Shown: one piece after another, positions 12,856-51,417 of the stretch
How positions within the stretch are numbered: position 1 is the first letter of the stretch
Layout of the letters: each line of letters begins with the position of its first letter
Source of the DNA: Aromatoleum toluolicum
Lineage (GTDB): Bacteria > Pseudomonadota > Gammaproteobacteria > Burkholderiales > Rhodocyclaceae
NCBI RefSeq assembly: GCF_012911005.2
Contig: NZ_WTVS01000004.1
Coordinates: 1 to 64,000, forward strand
DNA length: 64,000 nucleotides
Direction: 5' to 3'
Position numbers and translations under genes: made by a program
Notes under the pieces: generated by a model
Databases searched by the model: none
Told to the model about the DNA's origin: nothing
Seen by the model: the letters and a program-made list of their open reading frames with translations, nothing else

Positions 12856-13560
12856 TCACCCCCCCTTGAATTGCGCCGAGATGCGCTCCATCACCGTGTG
12901 ATGGTTGGCGTGTGCTGCAAGGTTGTAGGCCGTCAGATTTGCCGCGCGGATGAACGCACGTTCGACCTGTCCGGCGGCGACATCGATGTCGATGATGTTG
13001 ATGCAGGCGGGTTCCTGCTCGAAGGCTTTCAGGCCGTGCAGCGACGCCCCGACGACATGGCTCAGGATGACGCGATTGACCGCGTCGTGGGCGACCACCA
13101 GCAGGTTGGCCCAGTCGTCCGCCCGCACGAGTTCGAGCCAAACTTCGAGCACGCGCCGCTCGAAGTCCGCCCAGGATTCGCCGCCGATGAAGCTCGCGCC
13201 CGGCTCGGGGGCCCGCTCGTAGGCGCGGGTGATGATCTCGTCGCGCCGCTGCGGCGGAACCTCAGCGAGGCGGCCGGCGCGGATTTCCTTCAGGCGCGGC
13301 TCCTCGCGCACCGGCAGGGTCCGCCCGTCCAGCACCAGGCTCGCCGTGCGGGCGGTGCGCGGCATGCCGGAGATGAGCGCGCCGTCGAACGGAATCTCCC
13401 GCAGCAGCGCGCCCGCCGCGCGAGCCTGCTCGCACCCGTGCTCGGTGAGGGTCACGTGGCGCGGGTCGATGGGGCGCCCGGCGGCATCGAAGTACTGCAC
13501 CTCGCCGTGGCGCATCAGATAGACGCGTCGGCGACGATCCGTGCCCGCCAGGCGGCTCAT
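12856..13560 (-). CDS. Histidine phosphatase family protein (phosphoglycerate mutase-like)
   Basis: A 234-aa protein with the phosphohistidine motif LMRHGE (His18) near the N-terminus and a second conserved histidine in VVAHDAVNR. Family members remove phosphate from small molecules or proteins. It is the last gene of the thiolase-to-phosphatase operon, its ATG sharing one base with the upstream stop (TGATG). Co-occurrence with an APH-type kinase and a dehydrogenase that may handle a phosphorylated acyl-CoA raises the chance of a metabolic or repair role there; this is inference. Confidence 0.8.
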   Translation of the reverse strand: MSRLAGTDRRRRVYLMRHGEVQYFDAAGRPIDPRHVTLTEHGCEQARAAGALLREIPFDGALISGMPRTARTASLVLDGRTLPVREEPRLKEIRAGRLAEVPPQRRDEIITRAYERAPEPGASFIGGESWADFERRVLEVWLELVRADDWANLLVVAHDAVNRVILSHVVGASLHGLKAFEQEPACINIIDIDVAAGQVERAFIRAANLTAYNLAAHANHHTVMERISAQFKGG

Positions 13561-13961
13561 CAGCCCTGCTCCCCGAGATATTTCGGGTTGCTTTCCATGA
13601 CCTTGGTGCGGATGGTTTCCAGCAGATGCTGCCGCGCCGCATCGCGCCACGCACCGGCGTCGCCCCGACCGGCACGGATCGCGTGCGCGAACTCGCGGTC
13701 GAGTTCCGTAAGCCGCCGCCGCAGTTCGGCCCCGCCGGCCGGTTCGTCGCGCCCGGCGTGACCCAGCAAGGACTGCAGCGATCTCAGTTCCCTGCGCTCG
13801 CCATCCTCGCCGTTCTTCAGCTGGCGCATCGCGATGATCATGGCGTTGGCGATCATCAGCGCGGCGTGCTTCCGCTCGGGCGGCAGCGCGGGCAGGATCT
13901 CTTCCCGCAACACGTTCCGCGCGGTCTCGAGCAGTTGTTCGCCGATCGGTTCGTCGCGCAT
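13560..13961 (-). CDS. DUF6285-like small protein (LvaB-like position)
   Basis: A 133-aa protein rich in helix-forming residues with no cofactor motif. The string KHAALMIANAMIIAMRQL and the C-terminal KVMESNPKYL fit, from memory, the DUF6285 family found beside APH-type kinases. In Pseudomonas putida the small protein LvaB is needed by the kinase LvaA to phosphorylate 4-hydroxyacyl-CoA. The same gene order here suggests a kinase partner. Its stop and start each share one base with the neighbouring genes (TGATG), so tight co-translation is likely. Confidence 0.65.
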   Translation of the reverse strand: MRDEPIGEQLLETARNVLREEILPALPPERKHAALMIANAMIIAMRQLKNGEDGERRELRSLQSLLGHAGRDEPAGGAELRRRLTELDREFAHAIRAGRGDAGAWRDAARQHLLETIRTKVMESNPKYLGEQG

Positions 13962-14971
13962 CAGCGGGCCTCCGTCATGGTCAGGATTTCGTATTCGAGT
14001 TCCGGTACGATGTGGCCGGTCAGCGCGAGCATCAGCGAGGTCTCCTCGCCGGAGAGGTGACGCTCGGCCTGCTGCACGGCGATCACGGCCCAGTTCAGAT
14101 GCGCCATCACTTCCCAGTAGTGGATGTCCTCGTCCTCGAGGCGGCGCCCGGTGACGGCTGCATAGCCGCGATAGAAGTCCTCGCGCGCCCCCACTCCGCC
14201 CGCCTCGCCCTTGCCGCCGAAACGCCAGCACTTGGCGCAGAACCAGCCGACATCCTCGAGCGGGTCGCCCCAGCCGGAGAACTCCCAGTCGAGGATGGCG
14301 GTGAGACCGTTCTCGTCCACCATGTAGTTGCCAGTGCGGAAATCGCGATGGCACAGGACGAGCTCGCCGCGCTCGGGCGCATTGATTTCGAGCCAGCGCA
14401 GGCCCCATTCCAGCGCGGGGTGGGCGGTGCGATGGCCGTCGAGGAAGCGGCGCAGCCGTGCGACGTGCTGCAGCGCGGGCGACGAGCCCGGGGACGGCAG
14501 GAACGCGAGATCCTCGCGCGGCGGACGGATCGAATGGATGCGGCCGAGCTCGGCGCCGAGGCGTTCGAGCAGCACGCGGCGGTCACCGCCCAGCTTCGCG
14601 TCGCGCACGACGACGTGGGAGGCCGCAACGCCGCCGACGAAGCGCATCACGAAGAACTGCTTGCCGATGAGGCTCGCGTCGCGGCACAGCCACAGCGGCT
14701 CCGGCACCGTCACGCCAGCGGCGTGGGCGGCCTTGAGGAGCGCGAACTCCTCGGCGCGGCAGTGGCTGCCGGATACTCCCGACGGCGCGTCGGTGCGCAC
14801 GACGAGCTTCAGTTCGGGGGCGAACGCGCCGCCCGCGACCTCGGCCTGGATGAACCAGTTTTCCTGGATCGAGCCCCCCGAGAGGAGCTTCGCTTCCGCG
14901 ATCGATACCCGGTCGGCACCAGCCTCCCGTCGAATGAATTCTTCCAGCGCGCCGCGCATCTGTTCGTTCAT
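13961..14971 (-). CDS. APH-type kinase (LvaA/ACAD10-11 kinase-like)
   Basis: A 336-aa phosphotransferase of the aminoglycoside/choline kinase fold. The catalytic motif HRDFRTGN has His208, Asp210 and Asn215, and the Mg-binding motif is DWE at 228-230. In the lva operon and in human ACAD10/11, kinases of this type phosphorylate the hydroxyl of 4-hydroxyacyl-CoA so that an acyl-CoA dehydrogenase-fold partner can eliminate phosphate. Such a partner is the next gene upstream. The ATG at 14971 is chosen; a GTG three codons earlier is also possible. Antibiotic resistance is unlikely given the operon. Confidence 0.78.
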   Translation of the reverse strand: MNEQMRGALEEFIRREAGADRVSIAEAKLLSGGSIQENWFIQAEVAGGAFAPELKLVVRTDAPSGVSGSHCRAEEFALLKAAHAAGVTVPEPLWLCRDASLIGKQFFVMRFVGGVAASHVVVRDAKLGGDRRVLLERLGAELGRIHSIRPPREDLAFLPSPGSSPALQHVARLRRFLDGHRTAHPALEWGLRWLEINAPERGELVLCHRDFRTGNYMVDENGLTAILDWEFSGWGDPLEDVGWFCAKCWRFGGKGEAGGVGAREDFYRGYAAVTGRRLEDEDIHYWEVMAHLNWAVIAVQQAERHLSGEETSLMLALTGHIVPELEYEILTMTEAR

Positions 14972-15017
14972 GTTCTGCACACTCGTCCGTGGTTCGGAAA
15001 TGCGTTCGCCCGGCGCA

Positions 15018-16190
15018 TCACACTTCGCGCGCGATGCCCTTGATGACCCGCTTCGCGATGCTCCAGCGGTGCACCTCGGACGGGCCGTCGTAGATGCGGA
15101 ACGCCCGCATGTCGGCGAAGATTTGCGCCACCGTGGTCTCGCGCGTCACGCCCTGCCCGCCGAGGATCTGCACGCAGCGGTCGACGACGCGCCAGCAGGC
15201 TTCCGAGACCAGGACCTTGGACATGCTCGAGTCGTGGATCGCGAGGTGCCCCTTGTCGAGCACCCAGGCGGTGTGCCAGATCGCCAGGCGCGCCGAGTGG
15301 ATGTCCATCTCGTTGTCCGCGAGCATGAAGCCGACGCCCTCGTGGCTGCCCAGCGGCTTGCCGAAGGCGTGGCGTCGACGGGCGTAGTCGGTGGCGATAT
15401 CGTGGGCGCGGCGTGCGGCGCCGAGCCAGCGCATGCAGTGCGTGAGGCGCGCCGGCGACAGGCGGACCTGCGCGTACTTGAAGCCCTCGCCGAGCTCGCC
15501 GAGGATGTTCGCGGCGGGCACGCGGACGTCGTCCAGGCGCACGACGCCGTGTCCGCCGGGGAAACAGGTGTCGAGGGTGTCCATCGAGCGCTCGACGACG
15601 AAGCCGGGCACGTCGGTGTCCGACAGGAACATCGTGGCGCGCCCGTCCTCGAGCTTGGCCATGATGATCGCGAACGCGGCGCCGTCGGCACCGGTGGTGA
15701 ACCATTTGCGCCCGTTGATGACGTAGTCGTCACCGTCGCGCACCGCGGTGGTCTGCAGCATCGAGGGGTCGGAGCCGGCGCCGGGGGTCGGTTCGGTCAT
15801 GCAGAAGCACGAGCGCACCTTGCCGGCGGCGAGCGGGCGCAGCCAGCGCTCCTTGTGCTCGGGCCGGGCGACGACCTCCATCAGGTGCATGTTGCCCTCG
15901 TCCGGCGCCGCAATGTTGAGCGCAACGGGACCGAGCAGCGAGTATCCGGCCTCCTCGAAGAACACCGCCTTCGCGCGGTGATCGAGGCCCAGGCCGCCGA
16001 ATTCCTTCGACACGTGCGCGGACAGCAGCTCCGCCGAGCGCGCCTTGGCGATCAGTTCCGCACGCAGCTCCTCACTCGGCCCGTGCGCGGTCCGGCGCGG
16101 GTCGCGCTCGTAGGGAATGATTTCCTCCGCGATGAAGCGGCGCACCTTCTGCTGCAGTGCCGACAGTTCTTCCGACAGATCAAAGTTCAT
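15018..16190 (-). CDS. Acyl-CoA dehydrogenase family protein, ACAD10/11 (LvaC)-like
   Basis: A 390-aa flavoprotein of the acyl-CoA dehydrogenase fold, with CFCMTEPTPGAGSDPS in the FAD/substrate region and LGGQGVTRETTVAQIFADMRAFRIYDGPSEVHR near the end in two conserved pieces. At the position of the usual catalytic glutamate of the YEG motif it has Asp368 (YDG), which I recall as typical of the ACAD10/11 group. With the kinase beside it, phosphate elimination from a phosphorylated acyl-CoA is as plausible as plain dehydrogenation. The ATG at 16190 is the only good start. Confidence 0.8.
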   Translation of the reverse strand: MNFDLSEELSALQQKVRRFIAEEIIPYERDPRRTAHGPSEELRAELIAKARSAELLSAHVSKEFGGLGLDHRAKAVFFEEAGYSLLGPVALNIAAPDEGNMHLMEVVARPEHKERWLRPLAAGKVRSCFCMTEPTPGAGSDPSMLQTTAVRDGDDYVINGRKWFTTGADGAAFAIIMAKLEDGRATMFLSDTDVPGFVVERSMDTLDTCFPGGHGVVRLDDVRVPAANILGELGEGFKYAQVRLSPARLTHCMRWLGAARRAHDIATDYARRRHAFGKPLGSHEGVGFMLADNEMDIHSARLAIWHTAWVLDKGHLAIHDSSMSKVLVSEACWRVVDRCVQILGGQGVTRETTVAQIFADMRAFRIYDGPSEVHRWSIAKRVIKGIAREV

Positions 16191-16224
16191 GCTTGGCTGA
16201 CTCCCGCGAGATGGTTCGCCGATT

Positions 16225-17076
16225 TCAGGCGTAGTTGAAGAAGCCGCGGCCGCTCTTGCGCCCGAGGAAGCCGGCGTCGACCATTTCCTTGAGCAGCGGC
16301 GCGGGTCGGTACTTGGGATCATTGAAACCGGCGTGGAACATCTCCATCACCGACAGCATCGTGTCGAGGCCGATGAGGTCGGCGAGCGCCAGCGGGCCGA
16401 TGGGCTGGTTGCAGCCGAGCTTCATGCCGGCGTCGATGTCCTCGGCCGAGGCGAGCCCTTCCTGCAGCGCGAACACCGCCTCGTTGATCATCGGGCACAG
16501 GATGCGGTTCACCGCGAAGCCCGGGCTGTTCTTCGCGACGATAGCGGTCTTGCCGATCGCAGCGACGAATCCCCGCGCGGCGTCCACGCTCGCGGGCGAG
16601 GTGCACAGTCCCGGCACCAGCTCGACCAGCGCCATCAGCGGCACCGGGTTGAAGAAGTGCATGCCGACGAAGCGCTCGGGGCGTTTCGTCGCCGCCGCGA
16701 GGCGCGTGATCGACATCGACGAGGTGTTGGTGGCGATCAGCGCGTCCGGGCCGACGACCGCGTCGACCTGGGCGAGGATCTTCAGCTTGAGCGCCTCGTT
16801 CTCGGTCGCCGCCTCGATCACGAGGTCGACCCGCGCGAGGTCCGCGTAATCGGTCGTGCCGCGGATGCGGTCCAGGTATTCGTCCTTCTGCGCGGCCGTG
16901 AGCTGCCCCTTCTTGATCAGGCGGTCGAGGCTACCGGAGATCGTCGCGATCCCCTTGCCCACCGCATCGGCCGAAATGTCGACCATGACGACGGACAATC
17001 CCGCCGCCGCGCACACCTGGGCAATGCCGTTGCCCATCGTTCCCGCCCCGAGGACGCCTACCGTGCTGATACCCAT
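16225..17076 (-). CDS. 3-hydroxyacyl-CoA dehydrogenase (Hbd/PaaH type)
   Basis: A 283-aa single-function enzyme with the NAD-binding GAGTMG at 10-15, Ser119 and catalytic His140 in MHFFNPV. It oxidises (S)-3-hydroxyacyl-CoA to 3-oxoacyl-CoA with NAD+. Length equals the usual size of the Hbd/PaaH group. It lies between the thiolase (47 bp upstream) and the acyl-CoA dehydrogenase in one operon, the order expected for beta-oxidation. Confidence 0.88.
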   Translation of the reverse strand: MGISTVGVLGAGTMGNGIAQVCAAAGLSVVMVDISADAVGKGIATISGSLDRLIKKGQLTAAQKDEYLDRIRGTTDYADLARVDLVIEAATENEALKLKILAQVDAVVGPDALIATNTSSMSITRLAAATKRPERFVGMHFFNPVPLMALVELVPGLCTSPASVDAARGFVAAIGKTAIVAKNSPGFAVNRILCPMINEAVFALQEGLASAEDIDAGMKLGCNQPIGPLALADLIGLDTMLSVMEMFHAGFNDPKYRPAPLLKEMVDAGFLGRKSGRGFFNYA

Positions 17077-18383: not shown

Positions 18384-18433
18384 CCCGACCGGTCGGTCGA
18401 GCAAATACTAAAACATCGGCGCGCGGACAACAA
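18384..18433 (-). promoter_or_regulatory. Promoter and operator of the thiolase operon
   Basis: On the minus strand TTGTTG (18433-18428) and TAGTAT (18410-18405) are 17 bp apart. The palindrome CCCGACCGGTCGGT (18384-18397) lies just after the -10, over the expected transcript start. A bound repressor there would block initiation or escape. This is one of nine related sites in the window. Confidence 0.65.
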
Positions 18434-18681: not shown

Positions 18682-18710
18682 TTGACACCCGACCGGTCGG
18701 TCGATACGCT
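18682..18710 (+). promoter_or_regulatory. Promoter with operator in the spacer, SDR operon
   Basis: TTGACA (18682-18687) and TACGCT (18705-18710) are 17 bp apart, and the palindrome CCCGACCGGTCGGT (18688-18701) fills the spacer. Such placement predicts repression by steric block. It drives the plus-strand genes from 18810 to 23664. Confidence 0.72.
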
Positions 18711-22920: not shown

Positions 22921-23664
22921 ATGCAGAACTACATCGATTTCACCGACAAGGTCGTGCTGATAACAGGCGCCAGCCGCGGGCTGGGTCGGGCGATGGCGCT
23001 CGGTTTTGCCGAATGCGGCGCCAACATCGTCGCAACGAGCCGTTCGGCGGAGAGCTGCGCCGAGGTCGTCGCCGAAGTCGAGCGCCTGGGTCGCCGTGCG
23101 GTCGCCATCGGCTGCCACGTCGGCAAATGGGACGATCTGCCGCGGCTCGTCGAAGGCGCGCTGGAGGCCTTCGGCCGCATCGACGTGCTCGTCAACAACG
23201 CGGGCATCGCGCCGGTCGCCGAATCGTCGGCCGCGGTAAGCGAGGAGCTGTTCGACAAGATCATGGCGGTGAACCTCAAGGGCCCCTTCCGCCTCTCCGC
23301 GCTGGTCGCCGGGCACATGCGCGCGAACGGCGGCGGAGCCATCATCAATATCACCAGCACCGCGGCGATCCGGCCGGAGCCGGTCTATCCGGTGTATGCC
23401 GCGGCAAAGGGCGCGCTCAACATCGTCACGCGCTCGCAGGCGATGGAGTTCGGGCCTACGGTGCGCGTCAACGCGATCATGGCCGGTCCGTTCTGGACGG
23501 ACATCTCGCGCAGCTGGCGCGAGGACTACGATCGCAACGCGCCGTCGGCGGCGAAGCGCATTGGCCGGCCGGAGGAGATCGTGTCGAGCGCGCTCTATCT
23601 CGCGAGTCCGCGCTCGAGCTACACGACCGGGGCGATCATTCAGCTGGACGGGGGGATCCCGTAA
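22921..23664 (+). CDS. Short-chain dehydrogenase/reductase
   Basis: A 247-aa classical SDR: TGASRGLG at 15-22, NNAG at 92-95, Ser146, Tyr159/Lys163. The start at 22921 has AGGAGATAG upstream. It is the last gene of the plus-strand operon. Its last 29 bases overlap, tail to tail, the 3' end of the MFS gene on the other strand, so there is no room for a terminator between the operons. Confidence 0.85.
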   Translation: MQNYIDFTDKVVLITGASRGLGRAMALGFAECGANIVATSRSAESCAEVVAEVERLGRRAVAIGCHVGKWDDLPRLVEGALEAFGRIDVLVNNAGIAPVAESSAAVSEELFDKIMAVNLKGPFRLSALVAGHMRANGGGAIINITSTAAIRPEPVYPVYAAAKGALNIVTRSQAMEFGPTVRVNAIMAGPFWTDISRSWREDYDRNAPSAAKRIGRPEEIVSSALYLASPRSSYTTGAIIQLDGGIP

Positions 23665-26497: not shown

Positions 26498-27612
26498 GCG
26501 GGGATGCCCTCCGGGCTGGAATGCGTGGTGGCGGCGAGGAAGCGTGCGAAGTGTTCGTCACGGCTGCCGAACAGGGCGGCATTGACCATCAGCCGCCGGA
26601 AATAGTGGCTCACGTCGAGCTCCTCGGTGATGCCAAGGCCGCCGTGCATCTGCACTGCCTCGTTCGCGACCTTGCGCGCGGCGCTGGAAATGTAGGCCTT
26701 CGCACCGCTGATGATGCGCGCGCGTTCGGCGGCGGGCCGCAGCAGCGCCTCCTGCGCCGAGCGCGTGAGGGCGGCGATCTCCTCCTGCAGCAGGAACATA
26801 TCGACCGCACGGTGCTGAAGCGCCTGGTTGGTGCCGATTGCACGGCCGAACTGCTTGCGGATCTTCAGGTACTCGCAGGTCGTCGCGACCAGCGCACGCA
26901 CGATGCCCAAGGCCTCGGCGCAGGAGGCGACCGTCGCGTGGTCGAGCACGTCGGCGATCGCGGTGGCCGCCGGCGTGCCGTCGTCCGGGTCGAGTCGCTC
27001 GGCCGGCACGCCGGCGAAGTGCAGGTTCGCCGCGCCGCGACCGTCGACGAAGCGGTAGTGCCGCCGCTCGATCTCCGCCGACTTCGCGTCGACGAGAAAC
27101 AGGCGGCGCTCGCCGCCGTGATCGGCATCCGCCGCGGAGACGATCAGCCGGTCGGCGATGTCGCCTTGCAGCACCGCGATCTTGCGTCCGCTGATGCGCC
27201 CGGCGCGGACCTGGCACCGAGGGTCCCCCGCCGCCTCGGCATCCGCGAACGCGAGCTTCACCGAGCCGTCGGCAAGCTGCGGCAGCAGCGCGTCCTGCTG
27301 CGCGGCGCTGCCCTGGCTGCGCACGAGCCCGGTACTAACGAGCGCACTCGCGAGCACCGGCTCCATCAGCAGGCGGCTACCCACCACTTCCATCAGCGCA
27401 CCGACCGCGAGCGGGTCGGCATCGAGGCCGCCGTGCTTCTCGGGCAGGCGCAATGCGAGCCAGCCCAGCTCGGCATAGTCGCGCCACGCCTTCCCGCTGT
27501 AGCCCGCCGGGTCCGCGAGCACCGCGTGGCGCTGCAGGAAATCGTAATTGTCGGCCGCGTAGCGCGAGGCGCTGTCGCGCAGCATCCCGGCCGTTTCGAG
27601 GTCCATGTTCAT
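26494..27612 (-). CDS. Acyl-CoA dehydrogenase, small subunit (PimD/FadE-beta-like)
   Basis: A 372-aa acyl-CoA dehydrogenase-fold protein with a degenerate N-terminal half but a typical C-terminal FAD-binding string (RKQFGRAIGTNQALQHRAVDM) and QMHGGLGITEELDVSHY. Such subunits pair with a second dehydrogenase to form alpha2beta2 enzymes, as for PimC/PimD (pimeloyl-CoA) or FadE pairs of steroid degradation. The start at 27612 overlaps the stop of its partner by four bases, which supports a 1:1 complex. Confidence 0.83.
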   Translation of the reverse strand: MNMDLETAGMLRDSASRYAADNYDFLQRHAVLADPAGYSGKAWRDYAELGWLALRLPEKHGGLDADPLAVGALMEVVGSRLLMEPVLASALVSTGLVRSQGSAAQQDALLPQLADGSVKLAFADAEAAGDPRCQVRAGRISGRKIAVLQGDIADRLIVSAADADHGGERRLFLVDAKSAEIERRHYRFVDGRGAANLHFAGVPAERLDPDDGTPAATAIADVLDHATVASCAEALGIVRALVATTCEYLKIRKQFGRAIGTNQALQHRAVDMFLLQEEIAALTRSAQEALLRPAAERARIISGAKAYISSAARKVANEAVQMHGGLGITEELDVSHYFRRLMVNAALFGSRDEHFARFLAATTHSSPEGIPA

Positions 27613-28796
27613 AGCCCCAGCACTCCCTTCGCAACGATGTTGCGCTGGATCTCGGACGCCCCGCCGAAGATGGTCGCGGCGCGGTTGTAGAAGTGATCCT
27701 TGACGATGCCGCCCGCGTCCTCGGGCCCCAGCGGCGGCGCGCTCGCGGCGTGCAGCGCGGCCGGATCCCACGCGACGCCGGCAAACCCCAGCAGGTCGAT
27801 CGCGGCTTCGGCGATGTCCTGGTAGAGCTCGGTGCCGCGCAGCTTGATCAGCGAGGCCTCGCCGCCATGGTCGGTGCCGCGCATCATCGATTCGACGGCC
27901 TGGTAGGAGGCCGCCTCCAGCGCCAGCAGGCGCAGTTCCAGCTCGCCGATGCGGGCGGCGGTGCGTTCGGGCGAGGCGGACGGTTTCTCCTGCGCCAGTG
28001 CCTTCAGCCGTTCCAGCGCATGGCAGGCCATGCCGAGCAGCGCGCCGGCCGTGCGCTCGTTCTTGAGCAGGTACTTGGCGTAGGTCCAGCCCTCGCCTTC
28101 CGCACCGACGAGGTTTTCGGCCGGCACGCGCACGTTTTCCAGCCACACCTCGTTCACATGCACGTAGCCGTCCATCGTCGGGATCGGCTTCACCGTCACG
28201 CCGGGGCTCTTCATATCGATCAGCACGAAGGAGATCGACTTCTGCGCCTGTTCGCCGCGCGCGGTCTTGACGAGGCAGAACAGCCAGTCCGCCCACTGCG
28301 CGTAGGTCGTCCACACCTTCTGGCCATTGACGACGTAGTGGTCGCCCTCCCGGATTGCCTCGGTGCGCAGCGCCGCGAGGTCGGAGCCGGCACCGGGTTC
28401 CGAATACCCCTGCGCCCAGAAATCCTCGGTCGTCGCGATGCGCGGCAGGAAGCGGCGCTTCTGTTCCTCGCGGCCGAAGGCGTAGATCACCGGGCCGACG
28501 TATTTCACGCCGAAGGGGATCACCCACGGGCAGCCCAGGCGCGCCAGCTCGTCCTCGAAGGTGAAGCGCTCGAGCAGCGACCAGCCCTGCCCGCCATGCT
28601 CCTTCGGCCAGTGGCCGATCGCCCAGCCCTGGTCGTTGAGCAGGCGCATCCAGCGCACGTAGTCGTCCTTGTCGAGCACCTGATGCAGGTGCGACTTCCT
28701 CTTCAGGTCGTCGGGCATCACGCGCTCGTGGAAGCTGCGGATGTCGGCCCTCAGGCGTCGGGCCTTGTCGCGGGCTTCGTCTAGCTGATCGGTCAT
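27609..28796 (-). CDS. Acyl-CoA dehydrogenase, large subunit (PimC-like)
   Basis: A 395-aa acyl-CoA dehydrogenase with WPKEHGGQGWS near residue 63, AQGYSEPGAGSDLA in the FAD/substrate region and FGGASEIQRNIVAK near the end. At the site of the usual catalytic glutamate it has Gly378 (FGG), so the base must come from another position or from the partner subunit. Resemblance to PimC suggests a dicarboxylyl-CoA or branched substrate. Together with the next gene it forms a heteromeric dehydrogenase. Confidence 0.84.
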   Translation of the reverse strand: MTDQLDEARDKARRLRADIRSFHERVMPDDLKRKSHLHQVLDKDDYVRWMRLLNDQGWAIGHWPKEHGGQGWSLLERFTFEDELARLGCPWVIPFGVKYVGPVIYAFGREEQKRRFLPRIATTEDFWAQGYSEPGAGSDLAALRTEAIREGDHYVVNGQKVWTTYAQWADWLFCLVKTARGEQAQKSISFVLIDMKSPGVTVKPIPTMDGYVHVNEVWLENVRVPAENLVGAEGEGWTYAKYLLKNERTAGALLGMACHALERLKALAQEKPSASPERTAARIGELELRLLALEAASYQAVESMMRGTDHGGEASLIKLRGTELYQDIAEAAIDLLGFAGVAWDPAALHAASAPPLGPEDAGGIVKDHFYNRAATIFGGASEIQRNIVAKGVLGL

Positions 28797-28844
28797 GGCG
28801 TTTCCTGCGCGATGGTCATGAAGGAATCCGGTTCGTCCGGCGCG

Positions 28845-30143: not shown

Positions 30144-30166
30144 GGCGGCGTCCTCCGGCCTGCCCG

Positions 30167-31315: not shown

Positions 31316-31484
31316 TTGTCCATTTGTTGTGCCGGACGGGCACCGCTGGTGCCGTCACGTCTGTCTCCGCCGGATTCCGCGAAATCCGGCATCGCCCGAT
31401 TTCCGCGCCGCATTCCCGTCCGTCCAGGCGGTCGATTCATTGACAATATTCAGCCGTGATAGTCTGGAATCGACCGTTGGACCC

Positions 31485-31514
31485 AAGATACTCGACCGAC
31501 CGGTCGGCTGTCAA
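31485..31514 (-). promoter_or_regulatory. Promoter with operator, kinase-to-MFS operon
   Basis: On the minus strand TTGACA (31514-31509) and TATCTT (31490-31485) are 18 bp apart, and ACCGACCGGTCGGC (31495-31508, plus strand) lies inside the spacer. It controls the genes 31315 to 23636. Confidence 0.72.
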
Positions 31515-31565
31515 CGCACAAAAATGGGTCCAGCCAACACGGGAAGCCGAGATCGCACGCTGCCA

Positions 31566-31594
31566 TTGACACCCGACCGTCCGGTCGGTAGGCT
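31566..31594 (+). promoter_or_regulatory. Promoter with operator, CMD-to-thiolase operon
   Basis: TTGACA (31566-31571) and TAGGCT (31589-31594) are 17 bp apart. ACCGTCCGGTCGGT (31576-31589), one base off the consensus, lies in the spacer. It controls the genes 31718-36825. Confidence 0.72.
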
Positions 31595-31717
31595 TGAAAC
31601 GAAATGGCTGCGGCACGCTGAGAGGACGCCTGCTGCCACCTTCCGGAAGCGGTCAGCCAAACGGCTTGCGGGAGGCGCAAACTTGGCGACACACGACAAT
31701 TCTCTTGGAGACTCAAG

Positions 31718-36835: not shown

Positions 36836-36889
36836 TTGACAAATATCGTTGCCGTGGTAAGGTTTCACTTAACCGACCGACCGGTCGGG
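36836..36889 (+). promoter_or_regulatory. Promoter and operator of the crotonase-to-ligase operon
   Basis: TTGACA (36836-36841) and TAAGGT (36858-36863) are 16 bp apart. ACCGACCGGTCGGG (36876-36889) follows the -10 by 12 bases, so it covers the start of the transcript. The half-site is repeated once more directly upstream (ACCGACC at 36872-36878). Confidence 0.7.
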
Positions 36890-36953: not shown

Positions 36954-37751
36954 ATGGAATTGGAAAAGGACGTCATTCAGTACGAAGTTGCCCCCAACGG
37001 CGTTGCCACGATCTGGCTCAATCGCCCGCACAAGCGCAACTGCGTGAGCCCCCAGCTGCTGAAGGAACTCGAGAAGGCCGTCGATCGCGCCTCCGAGGAC
37101 AAGGAAGCCCTCGCCGTCGTGTTCCGCGGCCGCGCCAACACCTTCTGCTCGGGCGCCGACCTCGACCTGCTGGTCAGCCCGGTGCTGCAGGAGACGACGA
37201 CCTCGCTACAACTGGCGATCGATTCCGCACGCACCTTCGACAAGATCTTCAACATGAAGAAGCCCACCATCGCCGCTGTTGAAGGTTTCGCGGTTGCAGG
37301 CGGTTTCGAGCTGATGATCTCCTGCGACTTCGCACTCGCCGCCAACGAAGCCAAGATCGGCGACTTCCACATCCGCCGCGCGCTGTTCGGCGGTGCAGGC
37401 CCGATCTACCGCCTGCCGCGCATGATCGGCATGCGCCGCTCGAAGGAGCTGATGCTCACCGGCAAGCTGCTCACCGGCGTGCAGTGCGCCGATTGGGGCC
37501 TGGTTAACGCCGCCGCGCCGCAGGCCGAGTTCGACAAGCTGATCCAGGACTTCTGCGCGCCGCTGATCGACAAGAGCCCGTTCTGCATGTGGATGACCAA
37601 GATGGCGTTGAACCGCGGCCTCGACGCGGACACCAACTCCCTGATCACCCTCGAAACCATGACCTGCAACGTGGTCCATCACTCGGAAGATGCCAAGGAA
37701 GGCGTGCGCGCCTTCCTCGACAAGCGCGCTCCGAAGTGGACCGGTCGCTAA
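36954..37751 (+). CDS. Enoyl-CoA hydratase/isomerase family protein
   Basis: A 265-aa crotonase with FCSGADL at 64-70 and the first glutamate, Glu119 (AGGFELM), but at the second catalytic site GDFHIRRAL in place of the usual PE. One glutamate only suggests isomerase or hydrolase-type chemistry rather than simple hydration. It opens the operon 36954-40456 (possibly to 41190). AGGAGCG lies upstream of the ATG. Confidence 0.78.
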   Translation: MELEKDVIQYEVAPNGVATIWLNRPHKRNCVSPQLLKELEKAVDRASEDKEALAVVFRGRANTFCSGADLDLLVSPVLQETTTSLQLAIDSARTFDKIFNMKKPTIAAVEGFAVAGGFELMISCDFALAANEAKIGDFHIRRALFGGAGPIYRLPRMIGMRRSKELMLTGKLLTGVQCADWGLVNAAAPQAEFDKLIQDFCAPLIDKSPFCMWMTKMALNRGLDADTNSLITLETMTCNVVHHSEDAKEGVRAFLDKRAPKWTGR

Positions 37752-37772
37752 TCCGCGGAGGCAGATAGGCAC

Positions 37773-38108
37773 ATGTCAGCAAGCTTGGTCATCCTGGCGA
37801 CCCGCCCCCCCGAATGGTCGCGCGAGCAATTCACCACCTGGTGGCGCAGCGAGCACGCGGACTACGCGAAGAAGCTCCCCGGCCTCGCCGCCTACCGCCA
37901 CGGCGAGGTGACGTTCGACTACGATCACCCGGAAGGACCCGCCTGGGATGGCCATGCCGTGCTGACCTTCGCCTCGCGCGAAGTGCTCGATGCGGCACTT
38001 CATTCCCCCGAGTGGGCCGCCGCGGTGGCCCACGTCGGCAAGATGAAAGGAAAACGGATCGCCCTGATCACCGAGGAGCTCGATCTCCTCGCCGGTCACG
38101 GCGCCTGA
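37773..38108 (+). CDS. EthD-like dimeric alpha-beta barrel protein
   Basis: A 111-aa protein of the EthD/dimeric ferredoxin-like barrel type: WWRSEHADYAKKLPGLAAYRHGEV at the N-terminus in two conserved stretches, and a central hydrophobic strand. Family members range from accessory proteins of ether-degrading P450s to small lyases. There is no oxygenase here, so the role is open; a cyclase or isomerase helper is possible. 21 bp after the crotonase gene. Confidence 0.7.
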   Translation: MSASLVILATRPPEWSREQFTTWWRSEHADYAKKLPGLAAYRHGEVTFDYDHPEGPAWDGHAVLTFASREVLDAALHSPEWAAAVAHVGKMKGKRIALITEELDLLAGHGA

Positions 38109-38133
38109 AACCCGGCATCGCAAGGACAACAAG

Positions 38134-38931
38134 GTGAGCGAAAACTTTACCCCGGGCTTCGTCGCCCGCCAGTTTCGCCTCGACGGCAAGGTCGCACTCA
38201 TCACCGGAGGCCGCGGCGCGCTCGCCGAGGCCATCGCCGCGACGCTTGCCGACCTCGGCTGCAAGGTCGCACTGGCCTCGCGCCATCAGCAGGAATGCGC
38301 TGACATGGCTGCGAGCCTTGCCGAGCGCTTCTCGACCCAGGCCATCGGCCTGCGCTGCGACATCGCCAAGGAAGAGGACGTCGAGGCAGCCGTTGCGGCG
38401 ACGGTCGAGCAGCTCGGCGGCCTCGACATCCTGATCAACAATGCGGGCGCCTCCTGGTGGGGGCTGCCCGAAGAGATCCCGCTGTCGGGCTGGCGCAAGG
38501 TCATCGACGTCAACCTCACCGGCACCTTCCTCGCGTGCCGCCATGCAGCCCGCCACATGATCGGCAAGGGCGGCGGCTGCATGGTCAATATCGCCTCGGT
38601 GGGCGCCTTCCTCTCCTACCGGCCGGACGCCGGCCAGGTCGTGCCCTACACGACGAGCAAGGCCGCGATGGTGCATCTCACCAGCGACCTGGCCGCGCAG
38701 TGGGCCCACCACGGGATACGCGTGAATGCCGTCGCGCCGGGCTCGGTCGAGACCGGCATGACCGAAACGCTCACCGAAGGCATCCAGCAGAAACTCCTCG
38801 ACGGCATCCTGCTGCACCGCTTCGGCAAGCCCGCCGAAGTCGCGCCGACCGTCGCCCTGCTCGTCTCGGAAGCCGGTAGCTTCATCACCGGCCAGACATT
38901 CCTCGTCGATGGAGGCCAGTCGATTGCCTGA
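38134..38931 (+). CDS. Short-chain dehydrogenase/reductase with altered glycine motif
   Basis: A 265-aa SDR. NNAG at 102-105, Ser155 and Tyr172/Lys176 are intact, but the nucleotide motif reads TGGRGALA (24-31) rather than TGxxxGIG. Such a change is seen in some gluconate-5-dehydrogenase-like SDRs and need not abolish binding. GTG start at 38134, with AAGGACAACAAG upstream. Its 3' end overlaps the ligase start region by 23 bases if the ligase starts at 38909. Confidence 0.8.
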   Translation: MSENFTPGFVARQFRLDGKVALITGGRGALAEAIAATLADLGCKVALASRHQQECADMAASLAERFSTQAIGLRCDIAKEEDVEAAVAATVEQLGGLDILINNAGASWWGLPEEIPLSGWRKVIDVNLTGTFLACRHAARHMIGKGGGCMVNIASVGAFLSYRPDAGQVVPYTTSKAAMVHLTSDLAAQWAHHGIRVNAVAPGSVETGMTETLTEGIQQKLLDGILLHRFGKPAEVAPTVALLVSEAGSFITGQTFLVDGGQSIA

Positions 38932-40456
38932 CCGCACCCCCACCCAACACAGAGCGGACGGCCTGACCTGGACCGATGAAACGCTGTGGGCGCAGTTTTC
39001 GCGTCTCGCAGATGCCGCCCCCGAAGCGCTCGCGGTAGTCGGTGCCGACGGGCGTCGCTGGAGCCGCGCCGAGATGCGCGAGATGGCACACGCGGTGCGC
39101 GACGCGCTCCTCGCCGGCGGAGTCCGCCCCCACGACCGCGTGATGCTGCAGGGGCGCAAGACCGCCCCCGTGCTCGCCGCCGCGCTGGGAATCTCGGTGG
39201 CGGACGCCATCATCTGCCCCTACACGCCCGACCTCGGCATCGCCGAGCGCACCGTGCTCAACGAACGCCTCGACCACATCGCCGTCATCGGCGACGCAGA
39301 GGGCGAACCCATCCCGGGTGTCGCGGACCTGCGCCTGCAGTTGCGCAGCCGCAACCCTGACCTCGTCCCGGACGAGCGCAATGCGCGCACCGCGCTGATC
39401 GGCTTCACCTCCGGCACCACGGGCGTGCCGAAAGGCGTGATGCACTCCCCCGCAGCGATGAACTACACCGTGCGCGCGTGCGAACATATCGCCGGCCTCT
39501 TGCCGGGCGACACGATCCTCGGCGTGGTGCCGCTGGGCAGCGCGCCCGGCTTCACCTTCTCCGTCCATTTCTCGCTCTCGCTCGGCCACCCGCTCGTGAT
39601 CGTCGATCCCTGGGATCCGCTCGCGACGCTGCAGAAGATCGCCGAGCACGACGTGCGCTGGGGGATCTGCGTGCCGACCCACCTCGCGACCATGGTCGAG
39701 CTCGCGCGCAAGGGACAGTGGTCCGCGCCCAGCCCGCTCAAGGCCCTCGGTGTCGGCGGCAGCTCGATGACGCCCGAGCTCATCCGCGACGCGCGCGAGC
39801 TGCTGGACATCCGCGCGCTGCGCATGTTCGGCATGTCCGAATGCATGGGGCACGCCTCCACGCGACCCGACGATCCCATCGACCGGCAGTGCCATTCCGA
39901 CGGCAAGTCCTTCCCGGGCACGCAGGACGAAGCCTTCGACGCCGAGCGGCGCATGCTCGCGCGCGGCGAACGCGGCCAGGCCGGCGTGCGTGGCCCCTCG
40001 CTCTTCCTCGGCTATTGCCGCGGCCTCGGCGACAGCGAATTCCAGCTCACGCCCGACGGCTTCTACCTCACCGGCGACGAGATCATCTGCGGCGCCGACG
40101 GCTACCTGCGCGTCGTAGGGCGCATCAAGGATCAGATCATCCGCGGCGGATATAATATCGACCCGGCGGAAGTCGAAGCGGCATTGCTTCGGCACCCGGC
40201 GATCGACCAGGTCTCCGTCGTTTCCGTCCCCGAACCGCGACTCGGCGAACAGGCATGCGCGCTGTGTTCCGTTCGTGACGGTTACGGCAAACCGACCCTG
40301 GATGACATCAAGCAACACCTCGGCGAAATCGGCCTGTCGAAGAAGAAATGGCCTGAGCACCTCTTGATCATCAACCATTTCCCATATACAACGACCGGCA
40401 AGGTTGACAAGAAACGCATGGCCAGGATGGCCATCGCCGAGCTGGGGCTCGGATGA
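38909..40456 (+). CDS. Acyl-CoA ligase, AMP-forming
   Basis: A 515-aa adenylate-forming ligase: TSGTTGVPKG (167-176), the FGMSE adenine-site motif, GFYLTGDE and IIRGGYNIDPAEVE, and Lys498 in TTTGKVDKK. It activates a carboxylic acid with ATP and CoA. It is distinct in sequence from the ligase at 4132, so two acids or two stages of degradation are probably activated. The start is uncertain: ATG 38909 lies inside the SDR gene and TTG 38924 is an alternative. Confidence 0.85.
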   Translation: MEASRLPDRTPTQHRADGLTWTDETLWAQFSRLADAAPEALAVVGADGRRWSRAEMREMAHAVRDALLAGGVRPHDRVMLQGRKTAPVLAAALGISVADAIICPYTPDLGIAERTVLNERLDHIAVIGDAEGEPIPGVADLRLQLRSRNPDLVPDERNARTALIGFTSGTTGVPKGVMHSPAAMNYTVRACEHIAGLLPGDTILGVVPLGSAPGFTFSVHFSLSLGHPLVIVDPWDPLATLQKIAEHDVRWGICVPTHLATMVELARKGQWSAPSPLKALGVGGSSMTPELIRDARELLDIRALRMFGMSECMGHASTRPDDPIDRQCHSDGKSFPGTQDEAFDAERRMLARGERGQAGVRGPSLFLGYCRGLGDSEFQLTPDGFYLTGDEIICGADGYLRVVGRIKDQIIRGGYNIDPAEVEAALLRHPAIDQVSVVSVPEPRLGEQACALCSVRDGYGKPTLDDIKQHLGEIGLSKKKWPEHLLIINHFPYTTTGKVDKKRMARMAIAELGLG

Positions 40457-40545
40457 GGACATCGTTCCAGGACCCTTTTCTGCATATGCAAACGCATGGC
40501 ACGAGGGTATCGCGTCGCCGCTAACTTTCAGAACATGGGAGTCAC

Positions 40546-41190
40546 ATGAAGAGTCCGGACAAGAAGGCAGCTGCGCCAAAGAAAAAGAACGGCCGCGCAA
40601 CATCGGCCGCCCATGACGAAAAACGTCATGAAATCATCGGGCACTGCGCTTCGCTTTTCGATCGGGTGGGCTATCACGGCACCTCGATGCAGATGCTCGC
40701 CGACGAAGTGGGGCTCGGCAAGCCTACGCTCTACCATTACTTCGCGAGCAAGGGTGACATCCTGTACGAGATGCACCAGCTGCATATCGACTCGATGATC
40801 GGCGGCCTCGAACGCGACTCCCAAATCGAAGGGATCCAGCCCGCCCAGCGTCTGGAACGCGCCTGCGCCTCGACGCTGCGCGAGATCGCCCATCACCCCG
40901 GCTACGTGCGCGCCTTCATGGACCACTACGCCGAGCTGGAAGATGAGCAGCGCGAGGAAATGCGCCTGCGTCGACGCGAATACTTCACGCGTGTGACCGA
41001 TATCATTCGCGAGGGCATCGACACCGGCCAGTTCGCCAACGTCGATCCCCAACTCGCGACGCTCGCCTTCGTCGGCATGTGCAACTGGGCCTACAAGTGG
41101 TATCCCCGCATGGCGCAGGAAGTGCCGCCGGAGAAGATGGCAAAGCAGCTTTGCCAGCTTCTCCTCAACGGCTTGAACGTCCGCCCCTGA
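40546..41190 (+). CDS. TetR-family regulator, candidate controller of the palindrome regulon
   Basis: A 214-aa TetR protein with a Lys-rich N-terminal extension (about 25 residues), the DNA-binding helices at about 27-70 (VGYHGTSMQMLADEVGLGKPTLYHYF) and a C-terminal domain of the fatty-acid/steroid-regulator style (WAYKWYP near 184). Being the only TetR gene inside the zone of nine ACCGACCGGTCGGT sites, it is the likely repressor, with an acyl-CoA as inducer. No such site precedes the gene itself; it is 89 bp after the ligase and may be read through. GGGAG precedes the ATG. Confidence 0.82.
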   Translation: MKSPDKKAAAPKKKNGRATSAAHDEKRHEIIGHCASLFDRVGYHGTSMQMLADEVGLGKPTLYHYFASKGDILYEMHQLHIDSMIGGLERDSQIEGIQPAQRLERACASTLREIAHHPGYVRAFMDHYAELEDEQREEMRLRRREYFTRVTDIIREGIDTGQFANVDPQLATLAFVGMCNWAYKWYPRMAQEVPPEKMAKQLCQLLLNGLNVRP

Positions 41191-43458: not shown

Positions 43459-43597
43459 GCTTACGTCTCCATCGTGAACCAACTGACTCCGAAATTCCCG
43501 CCTGGCGGGAAAGCTGCGCGACCGGTCACCAGAGCGGCAAATCCCCATTGAGGGGATCCGCTTGGCGCGACATGGACGCCGGCGCATCCGTTATCCG

Positions 43598-43654
43598 ACC
43601 GACCGGTCGGGCCACATAACAGGCAAATTATAGTCGCGGCCCGAACCCTGTCAA
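43598..43654 (-). promoter_or_regulatory. Consensus promoter and operator of the ALDH gene
   Basis: On the minus strand TTGACA (43654-43649) and TATAAT (43632-43627) are 16 bp apart, both perfect. The palindrome ACCGACCGGTCGGG (43598-43611) lies 16 bases after the -10, over the early transcript. A full consensus promoter with an operator implies tight repression when substrate is absent. Confidence 0.78.
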
Positions 43655-44100: not shown

Positions 44101-44138
44101 GCGACACCGGTATCGCAGTCAACTCCTCGCGAATATGG

Positions 44139-44161
44139 CACAATTCGACCGTCCGGTCGGG
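44139..44161 (+). promoter_or_regulatory. Operator and weak -10 of the MDR reductase gene
   Basis: CACAAT (44139-44144) could be a -10, with no clear -35 (CAGTCA at 44116-44121 is 17 bp upstream). ACCGTCCGGTCGGG (44148-44161) follows at once and ends 27 bp before the start codon. Confidence 0.55.
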
Positions 44162-44188
44162 CGCCACACATCTTCGCGAGGAGCAACG

Positions 44189-45208
44189 ATGAACACACCC
44201 CAGAACAAGCAGATCCTGCTTCGGCAACGCCCCGAGGGCACCCTGCGCGAAAGCGATTTCACGCTGGTGACGCGCCCCGCGCGCGAACTCCGCGACGGCG
44301 AGTGCCTCGCACGCAACCTCTACTTCTCGCTCGACGCCGGCTTCCGCAAGTGGATGAACGCGGGCGCCGACGACAACTACCTGACCGCGATGGAGCTCGG
44401 CGCGCCGGTGCAGAGCATCGTGCTGGGCCGCATCGAAGCCTCTCGTCATCCCGATTACCCGGTCGGCAGCCTGGTGCTGGGGCGCAGTTCGTGGGAGGAG
44501 TTCAGCGTCTTCGACGGCAGCGACTTCCTCCAGAAACTCGACCACGACGGCAGTTTCCCGCTGCACGAGTATGTCGCGACGCTCGGCCCCACCGGCATGA
44601 CCGCCTACTTCGGCCTGATGGACATCGGCCGTCCGCGCACGGGCGACACCGTGCTCGTGAGCGCGGCCGGCGGCGCGGTCGGCTCGGTGGTCGGGCAGAT
44701 CGCACGCATCCTCGGCTGCCGCACCATCGGCATCACCAGTTCGGAAGATAAGTGCCGCTGGCTCGTCGAGGAGCTGGGCTACGACGCGGCGATCAACCAC
44801 CGCGCGCCGGGCGGCCTCGCAGCCGGCATCCGCGAGCACCTGCCGGACGGCTTCGACATCTACTTCGACAACGTCGGCGGCCCGATGCTGGACCAGGCCG
44901 TCCAGCACATGAAGCTCGGCGCGCGCGTCGTGCTGTGCGGCGCGATCGCCGACTACGATCAGAACGACCGCGAATCGGGCGTGTTCCACATGTGGCAGTT
45001 CATCGTGAAGCGCGCGAGCGCGGCGGGATTCATGTTCTCGGACTACGTCGAGCGCTACCCGGAAGCGGTGCAGGCGCTGTCGAAGTGGCTCGCCGAAGGC
45101 CGGCTGAAGACCGTTGTCGATATCCGCGAAGGGATCGAGCAGACGCCCAAGGCGTTCTGCGACATGCTGGAAGGAAAGAGCCGCGGCAAGTGCATCGTCC
45201 GCCTCTGA
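44189..45208 (+). CDS. NADPH-dependent MDR oxidoreductase, paralogue of 32434
   Basis: A 339-aa zinc-free medium-chain reductase of the CurA/prostaglandin-reductase group, with VLVSAAGGAVGSVVGQIARI (NADP site) and FDIYFDNVGG. It aligns end to end with the 32434 protein but is clearly diverged, so it probably reduces a different enone. ATG 44189 follows GCGAGGAG. Alone in its plus-strand unit, followed by a gene on the other strand. Confidence 0.83.
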   Translation: MNTPQNKQILLRQRPEGTLRESDFTLVTRPARELRDGECLARNLYFSLDAGFRKWMNAGADDNYLTAMELGAPVQSIVLGRIEASRHPDYPVGSLVLGRSSWEEFSVFDGSDFLQKLDHDGSFPLHEYVATLGPTGMTAYFGLMDIGRPRTGDTVLVSAAGGAVGSVVGQIARILGCRTIGITSSEDKCRWLVEELGYDAAINHRAPGGLAAGIREHLPDGFDIYFDNVGGPMLDQAVQHMKLGARVVLCGAIADYDQNDRESGVFHMWQFIVKRASAAGFMFSDYVERYPEAVQALSKWLAEGRLKTVVDIREGIEQTPKAFCDMLEGKSRGKCIVRL

Positions 45209-46522: not shown

Positions 46523-46543
46523 TTCGTCTGGAGTCCGGTGAAA

Positions 46544-47396: not shown

Positions 47397-47409
47397 GGGG
47401 ATGGGTTAT

Positions 47410-48459: not shown

Positions 48460-48487
48460 GCGCGTTTCTCCGCCTGACTCGTGGACA

Positions 48488-48940: not shown

Positions 48941-49020
48941 GGTCGCCTTGTCCCTCAGAAATGGTTTGATCGGCATCGGTTGCGGGCACGCGGCCCAGGG
49001 TGATTCGGACGTCCCCAGAA

Positions 49021-49046
49021 TAGACGACCGATCGGTCGGTCGTCTA
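49021..49046. promoter_or_regulatory. Extended operator upstream of the SRPBCC operon
   Basis: A 26-bp palindrome with 12 of 13 pairs matched (outer arms TAGACGACC and GGTCGTCTA). Its centre, ACCGATCGGTCGGT (49027-49040), differs by one base from the regulon consensus. It is the longest symmetric version of the site in the window. No clear -35/-10 pair was found on the minus strand here. Confidence 0.68.
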
Positions 49047-49103
49047 GTGGCTTGCGCTGATTTTCATCTTCGCATTTGACCCCGACACGAATGTGGAAAT
49101 CGG

Positions 49104-49132
49104 TTGACGCCCGACCGGCCGGTCGATATTCT
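49104..49132 (+). promoter_or_regulatory. Promoter with operator, molybdoenzyme gene
   Basis: TTGACG (49104-49109) and TATTCT (49127-49132) are 17 bp apart. GACCGGCCGGTC (49113-49124), a perfect 12-bp palindrome, fills the spacer; as a 14-mer it is ACCGGCCGGTCGAT, two bases off the consensus. Confidence 0.7.
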
Positions 49133-49257
49133 GACCCGACGCTAGAACACACCATGGCGCTACCGGAAACGACCGGCTTGCGAGGTCCGCGCAATGGCCG
49201 TCCACCACGCCCGTGAAGCTCCATGCAAAGCCTATTCACAGCGAGGAGACACGCAGC

Positions 49258-51417
49258 ATGATCGAGACTCACAAGTCGTTTTGCCGGTTCTGCCACGTAT
49301 TCTGCGGCATCCAGGTGGATGTCGATAAGGACGCGAATCGCGTCGTGGCAGTGCGTCCGGATCGCGACAACCTGGTATCGCAGGGCTACACCTGCCCCAA
49401 GGGCCGTGCCGAGATGGAGCGCCTCTACCACCCGAACCGGCTGCTCTCGAGCAGGAAGCGTGTCGGCGACGAATTCGTCGATATCGGCAAGCGGCAGGCG
49501 CTCGATGAGGTCGGCGCGAAGCTGCGCGAGATCATCGACCAGCATGGCCCCGAGTCGGTCGCGGTGTACATCGGCGACGCCGGGCACCGCATGTCGGCCT
49601 CGGGCCCGTGGTTCGTGCGCAAGTGGCTCGACGCGATCGGCTCGCGCGGCTTCTATACCTCCTACACCGTCGATTCGCCCAGCCTCGTCGTCGCGATGCA
49701 GCGCCTGTGGGGTTCGCTGATGCCGTTCAGCCTGTTCGACATCGATCACGCCGACGTGTGCATGTTCATCGCGACCAACCCCGTCGTCTCGCACATGCTG
49801 ACGATGCCGCAGTCGAACCCGTCCAAGCGCCTGCGCGACGCCCGCAAGCGCGGCATGAAGCTGATCGTGATCGATCCGCGCCGCTGCGAAGTCGCCAAGG
49901 TCGCCGACATCCACCTGCAGGTGAAGCCGGGCGAGGACGCGACCCTGCTCGCCGCGCTGATCAAGGTGATCCTCGACCGCCGCCTCTACGCTCAGGATTA
50001 TGTCGCGCAGTTCGGCAGCGGGCTCGCCGAGCTGCACGATGCGGTCGGCAGCTTCGACCTCGACTACGCCTCGCGCCGCACCGGCGTGCCGGCCCAGCTC
50101 ATCGAGGACGCCGCGGTCGCCTTCGCCACTGCCGGCAGCGGCGCCGCGACGAGCGGCACCGGCCTGCACATGGCGCGCCACCAGAACCTCACCACCCAGC
50201 TGGTGATGACGCTCAACGCGCTGTGCGGCCGCTACGACCGCCGCGGCGGCATGCTCGCGATGCCCGGCGCGCTGGCGCCCGAGATGCCGGAAGACTCGGG
50301 ACCGATCCCGTTGCCGCTGCACCCCGGCCCGGTGTCGCGCGTGCGCGGCATCCGCGCGCTCACGAACTGGCTGGGCGCCGAGGAGATGCCGTCGAACACC
50401 CTCACCGACGAGATCCTGACCCCGGGCAAGGGCCAGATCCGCGCGCTGATCGTGCACGGCGGCAACCCGGCGCTGGTCTTCCCCGACGAGACCGACACGG
50501 TGAAGGCACTCAAGAGCCTGGACCTGCTGGTCGTCAACGAACTCTTCATGTCTGCGACGGCGAAATACGCCGACTACGTGCTCGCATGCCGCCACCCCTA
50601 CGAGCGCGCCGACGTGCCGCGCCTGATGGACGCCTTCTTCCCCTTCCCCTACTCGCAATACACGCCGCCGCTGGTGCAGGCGCCGGACGAGGTGTTCCAG
50701 GAATTCGAGATCTTCTGGGACCTCGCCCGCCAGCTCGGCGTGCCGCTCGATGTCCCTGGCATCTCGATGGAGCGCCAGCCGACCGCCGACGAGATGCTCG
50801 ACGGTCTCAACGCCGGTTCGCGCATCCCGATGGACGCGATCCGCCAGCATCCGGAAGGCCGCATCTGGGGCGACACCGTGAGCCGCGCCGGCCACATCCT
50901 GCCGGGCATGATCGGCAACGCCAACAAGCGCTTCGATCTCGCCCACCCCGAGGTCGTCGCCGAGTTGCGCGACGTGCAGGCGGAATACTGGTCCGAGGGC
51001 GGCGGCTACGCGCCGGGCGAGCAGCATTCCTTCCGCATGATCACCTACCGCGAGGACGACGTGTATTGCACGCAGGGCCAGAACCTGCCCGACCTGCGCC
51101 GCCGCATTCCGTACAACCCGGTGATGATGAACCCCGAGGACATGGCGACGCTGGGGCTCGCGGACGGCGACGCGGTGAAGGTGGCGAGCAACTACGGCTC
51201 GGTCGAGGGGCTCGTCGCGGGCGGCGTCGAGTTCCCGCGCGGCGTAATCGGCATCGCACACGGCTGGGGCGACCCGGCCGAACCCGGCGGCCCGCGCGAG
51301 AAGGGCATCAACGTGCAGCGCCTGATCCCCGACGACAAAGACTTCGACCCGATCACCGGGTTGGCACAGATGTCGGCCATCGCGGTGAGTGTCGAGCGGA
51401 TCGCGCTGGTGCATTGA
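49258..51417 (+). CDS. Molybdopterin oxidoreductase (DMSO reductase superfamily), single subunit
   Basis: A 719-aa enzyme with a [4Fe-4S] site at the N-terminus (Cys9, Cys12, Cys16, Cys46 followed by PKGR) and bis-MGD domains. No signal peptide, so cytoplasmic. No iron-sulfur or membrane subunit follows, unlike formate dehydrogenases or ethylbenzene dehydrogenase. Where FdhF and NapA carry the metal-binding Sec/Cys, this protein reads TVDSPS (137-142), with Asp139 or Ser140 as the nearest possible ligands. Hydroxylation, hydration or reduction of a pathway intermediate are all possible. ATG 49258 follows GCGAGGAG; the frame is open upstream to 49213 without such a site. Confidence 0.85.
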   Translation: MIETHKSFCRFCHVFCGIQVDVDKDANRVVAVRPDRDNLVSQGYTCPKGRAEMERLYHPNRLLSSRKRVGDEFVDIGKRQALDEVGAKLREIIDQHGPESVAVYIGDAGHRMSASGPWFVRKWLDAIGSRGFYTSYTVDSPSLVVAMQRLWGSLMPFSLFDIDHADVCMFIATNPVVSHMLTMPQSNPSKRLRDARKRGMKLIVIDPRRCEVAKVADIHLQVKPGEDATLLAALIKVILDRRLYAQDYVAQFGSGLAELHDAVGSFDLDYASRRTGVPAQLIEDAAVAFATAGSGAATSGTGLHMARHQNLTTQLVMTLNALCGRYDRRGGMLAMPGALAPEMPEDSGPIPLPLHPGPVSRVRGIRALTNWLGAEEMPSNTLTDEILTPGKGQIRALIVHGGNPALVFPDETDTVKALKSLDLLVVNELFMSATAKYADYVLACRHPYERADVPRLMDAFFPFPYSQYTPPLVQAPDEVFQEFEIFWDLARQLGVPLDVPGISMERQPTADEMLDGLNAGSRIPMDAIRQHPEGRIWGDTVSRAGHILPGMIGNANKRFDLAHPEVVAELRDVQAEYWSEGGGYAPGEQHSFRMITYREDDVYCTQGQNLPDLRRRIPYNPVMMNPEDMATLGLADGDAVKVASNYGSVEGLVAGGVEFPRGVIGIAHGWGDPAEPGGPREKGINVQRLIPDDKDFDPITGLAQMSAIAVSVERIALVH

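Follow-up and report, generated by a model that had tools for sequence, protein, structure and literature searches.

Palindromic operators of a catabolic island in Aromatoleum toluolicum and their most probable TetR-family repressor

Palindromic sites distributed over a catabolic island of ~68 kb in Aromatoleum toluolicum are very probably operators of a TetR-family repressor, most probably the product of the gene at 40546-41190, which would control the island. This reading is drawn from sequence comparisons. We conclude that the regulon is real and conserved, larger than the first-pass annotation had claimed, and most likely run by this TetR; it is a further example of an already known repressor-operator type. 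The window, the whole stretch of 64,000 nucleotides that was analyzed, corresponds to positions 1 to 64000 of contig C234 in a host genome of 6,159,496 bases and 289 contigs. Coordinates below refer to this contig unless another is named.

Operator motif and promoter context

The first-pass annotation listed nine sites with 0 to 2 changes relative to the 14-mer ACCGACCGGTCGGT, which is also the published operator core of Burkholderia cenocepacia PaaR (see below). All nine are present, none as an exact copy: seven have one mismatch (18384, 18688, 31495, 31576, 36876, 43598, and 49027) and two have two mismatches (44148 and 49114). The seven window matches with ≤1 mismatch compare with a first-order Markov mean of 0.02; at ≤3 mismatches there were 25 matches versus a shuffle mean of 6.98, and 25 was reached in 0 of 100 shuffles.

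The proposed palindrome register proved to be wrong: its dyad axis is displaced by 2 bp, and CGACCG-N2-CGGTCG is the better motif. We dropped the earlier axis on the basis of column variation in 90 aligned sites and of exact-match counts. In the alignment, made of sites with ≤2 mismatches taken from fetched stretches of seven genomes, CGACCG-GN-CGGTCG stands out as the conserved block; column 10 is variable (T in 51 sites), and columns 15 and 16, which lie beyond the 14-mer, reach 83/90 and 85/90. The exact-match counts are the better evidence for the register, because the orienting of the 90 sites favors one side and the alignment includes a few weak matches within picked ORFs. CGACCGNNCGGTCG is matched without mismatch by all nine window sites and by no other window position, and with ≤1 mismatch by 12 positions versus a mean of 1.96. 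When the half-site was permuted (60 permutations; contig positions 12856-80755), CGACCG gave 12 matches and the next best half-site gave 1.

The sites had been placed mostly within the spacers of TTGACA-type promoters or just past the −10. This stood for five of the nine window operators: four are in such a spacer and one is past the −10; no promoter was called at the other four. The spacer operators lie at 18690-18703 (TTGACA-17-TACGCT; plus-strand unit from 18726), 31493-31506 (minus-strand promoter before 31315), 31574-31587 (plus-strand promoter before 31718), and 49112-49125 (TTGACG-17-TATTCT; molybdoenzyme gene, 49213-51417). The operator at 36874-36887 is 10 bp past the −10 of the operon 36954-41190, whose last gene encodes the candidate TetR. 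A promoter search gave no −35/−10 call at 18386-18399 (upstream of the minus-strand unit from 18320 to 12856), 43596-43609 (upstream of the minus-strand unit from 43587 to 41191), 44146-44159 (upstream of a zinc-type dehydrogenase gene, whose longest ORF is 44135-45208 and whose start is likely near 44189), or 49025-49038 (upstream of the minus-strand unit from 48976 to 45264).

Counting the whole island, which has 12 exact operators, the promoter calls put seven within a −35/−10 spacer and one immediately beyond a −10, and at the remaining four there is none; a palindromic operator overlapping a promoter, as is typical of TetR repressors, was therefore found in 8 of 12 cases. Over seven genomes, a −35/−10 call was obtained at 49 of 70 operators versus 17 of 1,500 random positions and 124 of 1,000 intergenic island positions. 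At three promoters aligned over these genomes, the invariant operator columns were 14/14, 14/14, and 13/14 (the first two at 31493 and 36874, the last at 31574), versus 79/120, 35/120, and 29/120 invariant columns in the flanks.

The candidate repressor and co-resident TetR proteins

The first-pass annotation had pointed to the TetR at 40546 as the repressor, and we regard it as the best candidate: it appears to be the sole regulator of the island by domain content, it co-occurs with the sites, and operators surround its homologues. The gene (40546-41190, plus strand) is the last of the operon from 36954; its product carries TetR_N (PF00440, 49.4 bits) and TetR_C_24 (PF17932, 95.5 bits), both above cut-off, as in a TetR repressor. 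A Pfam scan of 56 island proteins, which left out a few small or antisense ORFs, placed a DNA-binding regulator domain in 40546-41190 only. The best PDB relative, 3dcf, bears only a generic name; the second is PfmR of Thermus thermophilus (TTHB023, PDB 3VPR; E = 8e-22), and KstR2 is also among the relatives. The 3VPR structure is identified as PfmR in PMC10636190 and PMC6657595, and PMC7022988 gives TACCGACCGNTNGGTN as the PfmR consensus and TGACYrnnyRGTCA as the operator of Thermus SbtR. PfmR resembles the role proposed for TetR 40546 in repressing several promoters through a similar, though not identical, operator; it differs in controlling phenylacetate and fatty-acid genes, in belonging to a distant phylum, and in having asymmetric, A/T-flanked sites.

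Orthologues of TetR 40546 occur in 6 of the 16 other genomes of the genus. Among the 17 genomes including the host, the 7 with this TetR (74-100% identity) hold 9 to 12 sites with ≤1 mismatch, versus 0 to 4 in the other 10, which have distant TetRs only; with the exact corrected motif, the two ranges are closer (9-19 versus 2-8). Co-occurrence within the genus cannot tell TetR 40546 apart from the other island genes; loci outside the genus appear to do this better. Seven named loci came from a search with the protein (Aromatoleum diolicum 22Lin, A. tolulyticum, A. toluclasticum, Azoarcus sp. Aa7, two metagenome-assembled genomes [MAGs], and Erythrobacter), all of which were scanned for the operator site. 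In the two Burkholderiales MAGs, which are perhaps close kin and thus not independent, the TetR is 67% identical and accompanied by three exact operators each. In an uncultured Erythrobacter, an alphaproteobacterium (L103, 343-20400), the TetR is 50% identical and there are four exact operators in 20.6 kb; sites with ≤1 mismatch number four versus a Markov mean of 0.003, and the genes are partly shared with the island, in rearranged order. The helix GLGKPTLYHYF is identical in the TetRs of the two MAGs and Erythrobacter. For four distantly related TetRs from the same order or family (27-34% identity; L050-L053), the 2.2 to 3.6 kb of each locus contained no match at ≤2 mismatches.

Two other comparisons contributed little. 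When 24 host TetR helix-turn-helices were ranked by similarity to PfmR, TetR 40546, whose slice was five residues short, came third (119 versus 127 and 126) and a PaaR-like protein sixth, so this ranking does not single out TetR 40546. A proximity control over 24 TetR loci of the genome (~3 kb each) found a ≤1-mismatch site at 0 of 24 and a ≤2-mismatch site at 1 of 24 (L021); it carries no information, since even the 40546 locus scores 0, the operator of its operon lying 3.7 kb upstream.

The PaaR-like protein offers another explanation: it might read the island operators, alone or together with TetR 40546, in which case the island would belong to the phenylacetate regulon or be cross-regulated with it. 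In the literature searched, the exact 14-mer was printed in two papers. In B. cenocepacia, PaaR (BCAL0210) is described as repressing paaA through ACCGACCGGTCGGT between the −35 and −10, with mutation of this operator relieving repression (PMC2770484). The island system is likened to it by operator, not by protein sequence: both have a TetR-type protein, as repressor or candidate repressor, and the 14-mer, which the nine window sites match within one or two changes, but PaaR controls phenylacetate genes. The name PaaR does not in itself fix an operator, because Thermus PaaR (TTHA0973) is reported to have AACnAACGTTnGTT (PMC6651687). No PaaA-type oxygenase was found among the island proteins scanned. 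In the host, paaA is on another contig (C244) with a different TetR, the PaaR-like one, whose gene lies downstream (31212-31853); a T/A-flanked site, TTGACCGGTCGGTCAA, lies at 22923-22938 of that contig (L106, G000:C244), before the plus-strand row of genes that holds paaA. This TetR is only 23% identical to TetR 40546, yet the two are alone among the 24 host TetRs in having a KPxLYHY recognition helix, and their operators are nearly identical, sharing the inner GACCG-N2-CGGTC. In the corrected register, the paa site reads TGACCG-GT-CGGTCA versus CGACCG-N2-CGGTCG in the island (TGACCGGTCGGTCA and CGACCGGTCGGTCG, respectively), and the TGACCG-N2-CGGTCA form occurs once, upstream of the paa operon. 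We infer that the outer base pair (C/G versus T/A) keeps the island and paa regulons apart. The paa-type 16-mer TTGACCGGTCGGTCAA is present in exact form in all 17 genus genomes (once in 16, twice in G010), and paaA was present in 11 of the 11 searched for it, whereas the island site set is confined to the 7 genomes with a TetR 40546 orthologue. With the difference at the outer position and an island that encodes its own TetR, we consider it unlikely that the PaaR-like protein reads the island operators, alone or jointly.

That some other TetR takes this part is very improbable. The one at 11041-11703, beside the left operon, is near the island and has a partial TetR_C_24 match, but the island stretches of six relatives, all of which keep the operators, contain nothing that matches it, and its recognition helix (GLSTGLIYSYV) is different; on these two grounds we ruled it out.

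Genome-wide distribution and extent of the island

In the whole genome, the exact corrected motif has 19 matches versus 1 for the control. Twelve are within one 60-kb stretch of the island, and seven are elsewhere; among four of these seven that were opened, three are in picked ORFs and one is outside. Similar sites scattered at random through the genome had been named as evidence against a regulon, but the 7 off-island matches are about the background of the ten genus genomes lacking this TetR (2 to 8 each). Allowing ≤1 mismatch to ACCGACCGGTCGGT gave 11 matches versus 0 for the reversed pattern; 10 fall between 18.4 and 78.3 kb of C234, and the remaining one is on C237, within a picked ORF. 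Looser matches alone carry little weight, because at ≤2 mismatches signal and reversed-pattern control are equal (54 versus 51). Chance matching in G+C-rich DNA, to which this last total would lend itself, is a negligible explanation given the concentration of ≤1-mismatch matches on one contig, the excess of exact matches, and the conservation of the sites at orthologous promoters above that of flanking DNA.

We compared the proteins of positions 1-100000 of the contig with fetched stretches (60 to 90 kb) of six relatives having the TetR. Apart from the pair 51577-54490 and the flavoprotein at 56017 (see below), genes from 12856 to ~80755 are closely matched in some or all of the six. The part of the island inside the window runs from 12856 to 64000, and the island continues beyond it: exact operators are present at 64860, 69799, and 78248, and three weaker sites (64748, 69881, and 78644) have equivalents at corresponding positions in three, four, and five of the six relatives, respectively. 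The extent of 38 kb proposed earlier, with a functional limit at 51417, must therefore be abandoned. Because synteny and operators run to ~80.8 kb, some 29 kb farther right, that limit reflects the end of the window. To the right of 80755, the gene at 80796 is the only one closely matched, and that in a single relative (G016).

On the left, the earlier limit agrees with our data: the operon 45-11703 has no operator of this type and is not in the syntenic island, and neither its genes nor the AraC-type gene at 11800 have more than distant family matches, if any, in the six relatives. The left stretch (45-12786) has its own TetR (11041-11703) and AraC-type regulator (11800-12786). The region from 51577, described as uncovered by operators, is only partly so: the pair 51577-54490 clearly has none of its own, but the minus-strand genes 54853-64664 have the one at 64860, just beyond the window. 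The pair, which encodes a 2-oxoacid:ferredoxin oxidoreductase, had no counterpart in the stretches of the six relatives; because of this and the lack of its own operator, it looks like an insertion, lying within the island in the present genome only. The flavoprotein at 56017 has best matches of 49-56% in relatives, in G013 to the counterpart of 67912. In G014 and G012, most of 41.9-51.4 and 65-76.9 kb is without close counterparts, and each has seven exact operators. G003 has one extra site with ≤1 mismatch (9796), on the same contig but outside the fetched stretch.

Island contents and proposed regulation

The island encodes acyl-CoA dehydrogenases, thiolases, SDRs, APH-type kinase-like proteins, and an acyl-CoA ligase, as well as ketosteroid-dehydrogenase-like flavoproteins, DUF1302/DUF1329/MMPL envelope proteins, and molybdopterin oxidoreductases. 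This gene set points to a pathway that oxidizes a hydrophobic compound of alicyclic, terpenoid, or steroid-like type; NCBIfam scores for the flavoproteins 56017 and 67912, the ligase 38909, and the aldehyde dehydrogenase 41953 were below curated cut-offs. In two units (13961-16322 and 27609-31315), Pfam places APH-type kinase-like genes close to genes for acyl-CoA dehydrogenases. Such pairing resembles pathways that remove a hydroxyl group via a phosphate. A steroid kinase has been described (PMC8449060), and atcABC and kshAB are reported in Aromatoleum and Azoarcus (PMC9980454). Literature searches on Aromatoleum TetRs and clusters, steroids, 22Lin/cyclohexane, and the operator CGACCGGTCGG returned no title or abstract on the island, which does not prove that none exists.

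Binding and repression by TetR 40546 we infer as follows. A dimer would occupy CGACCG-N2-CGGTCG within the −35/−10 spacer of island promoters, or immediately beyond it, and exclude RNA polymerase; through the site at 36874, the protein would repress its own operon as well and so be autoregulated. The repressor would be released by an intermediate of the pathway, an acyl-CoA being the likeliest, and this would turn on the whole island of ~68 kb (contig 12.86-80.76 kb). The choice of effector is by analogy with KstR2 of actinobacteria (4w97, 4w1u), a homologous TetR (E = 4.5e-13) that controls a multi-operon catabolic cluster and is likened to TetR 40546 by sequence kinship. KstR2 has a different operator and a steroid-ring acyl-CoA as effector.

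The fuller picture, to which we give moderate credence, is that one TetR controls an island of ~68 kb and ~50 genes for a hydrophobic alicyclic compound, that regulator and operators have been kept together between Alpha- and Betaproteobacteria, and that a single base pair in each half-site (C/G versus T/A) distinguishes its operator code from the one used by the co-resident PaaR. If so, ~50 genes, many of them broadly annotated, would be joined as one inducible unit with natural limits, which would narrow the search for the substrate, and the two TetR regulators would provide a simple test case of how almost identical operators are kept apart in one cell.
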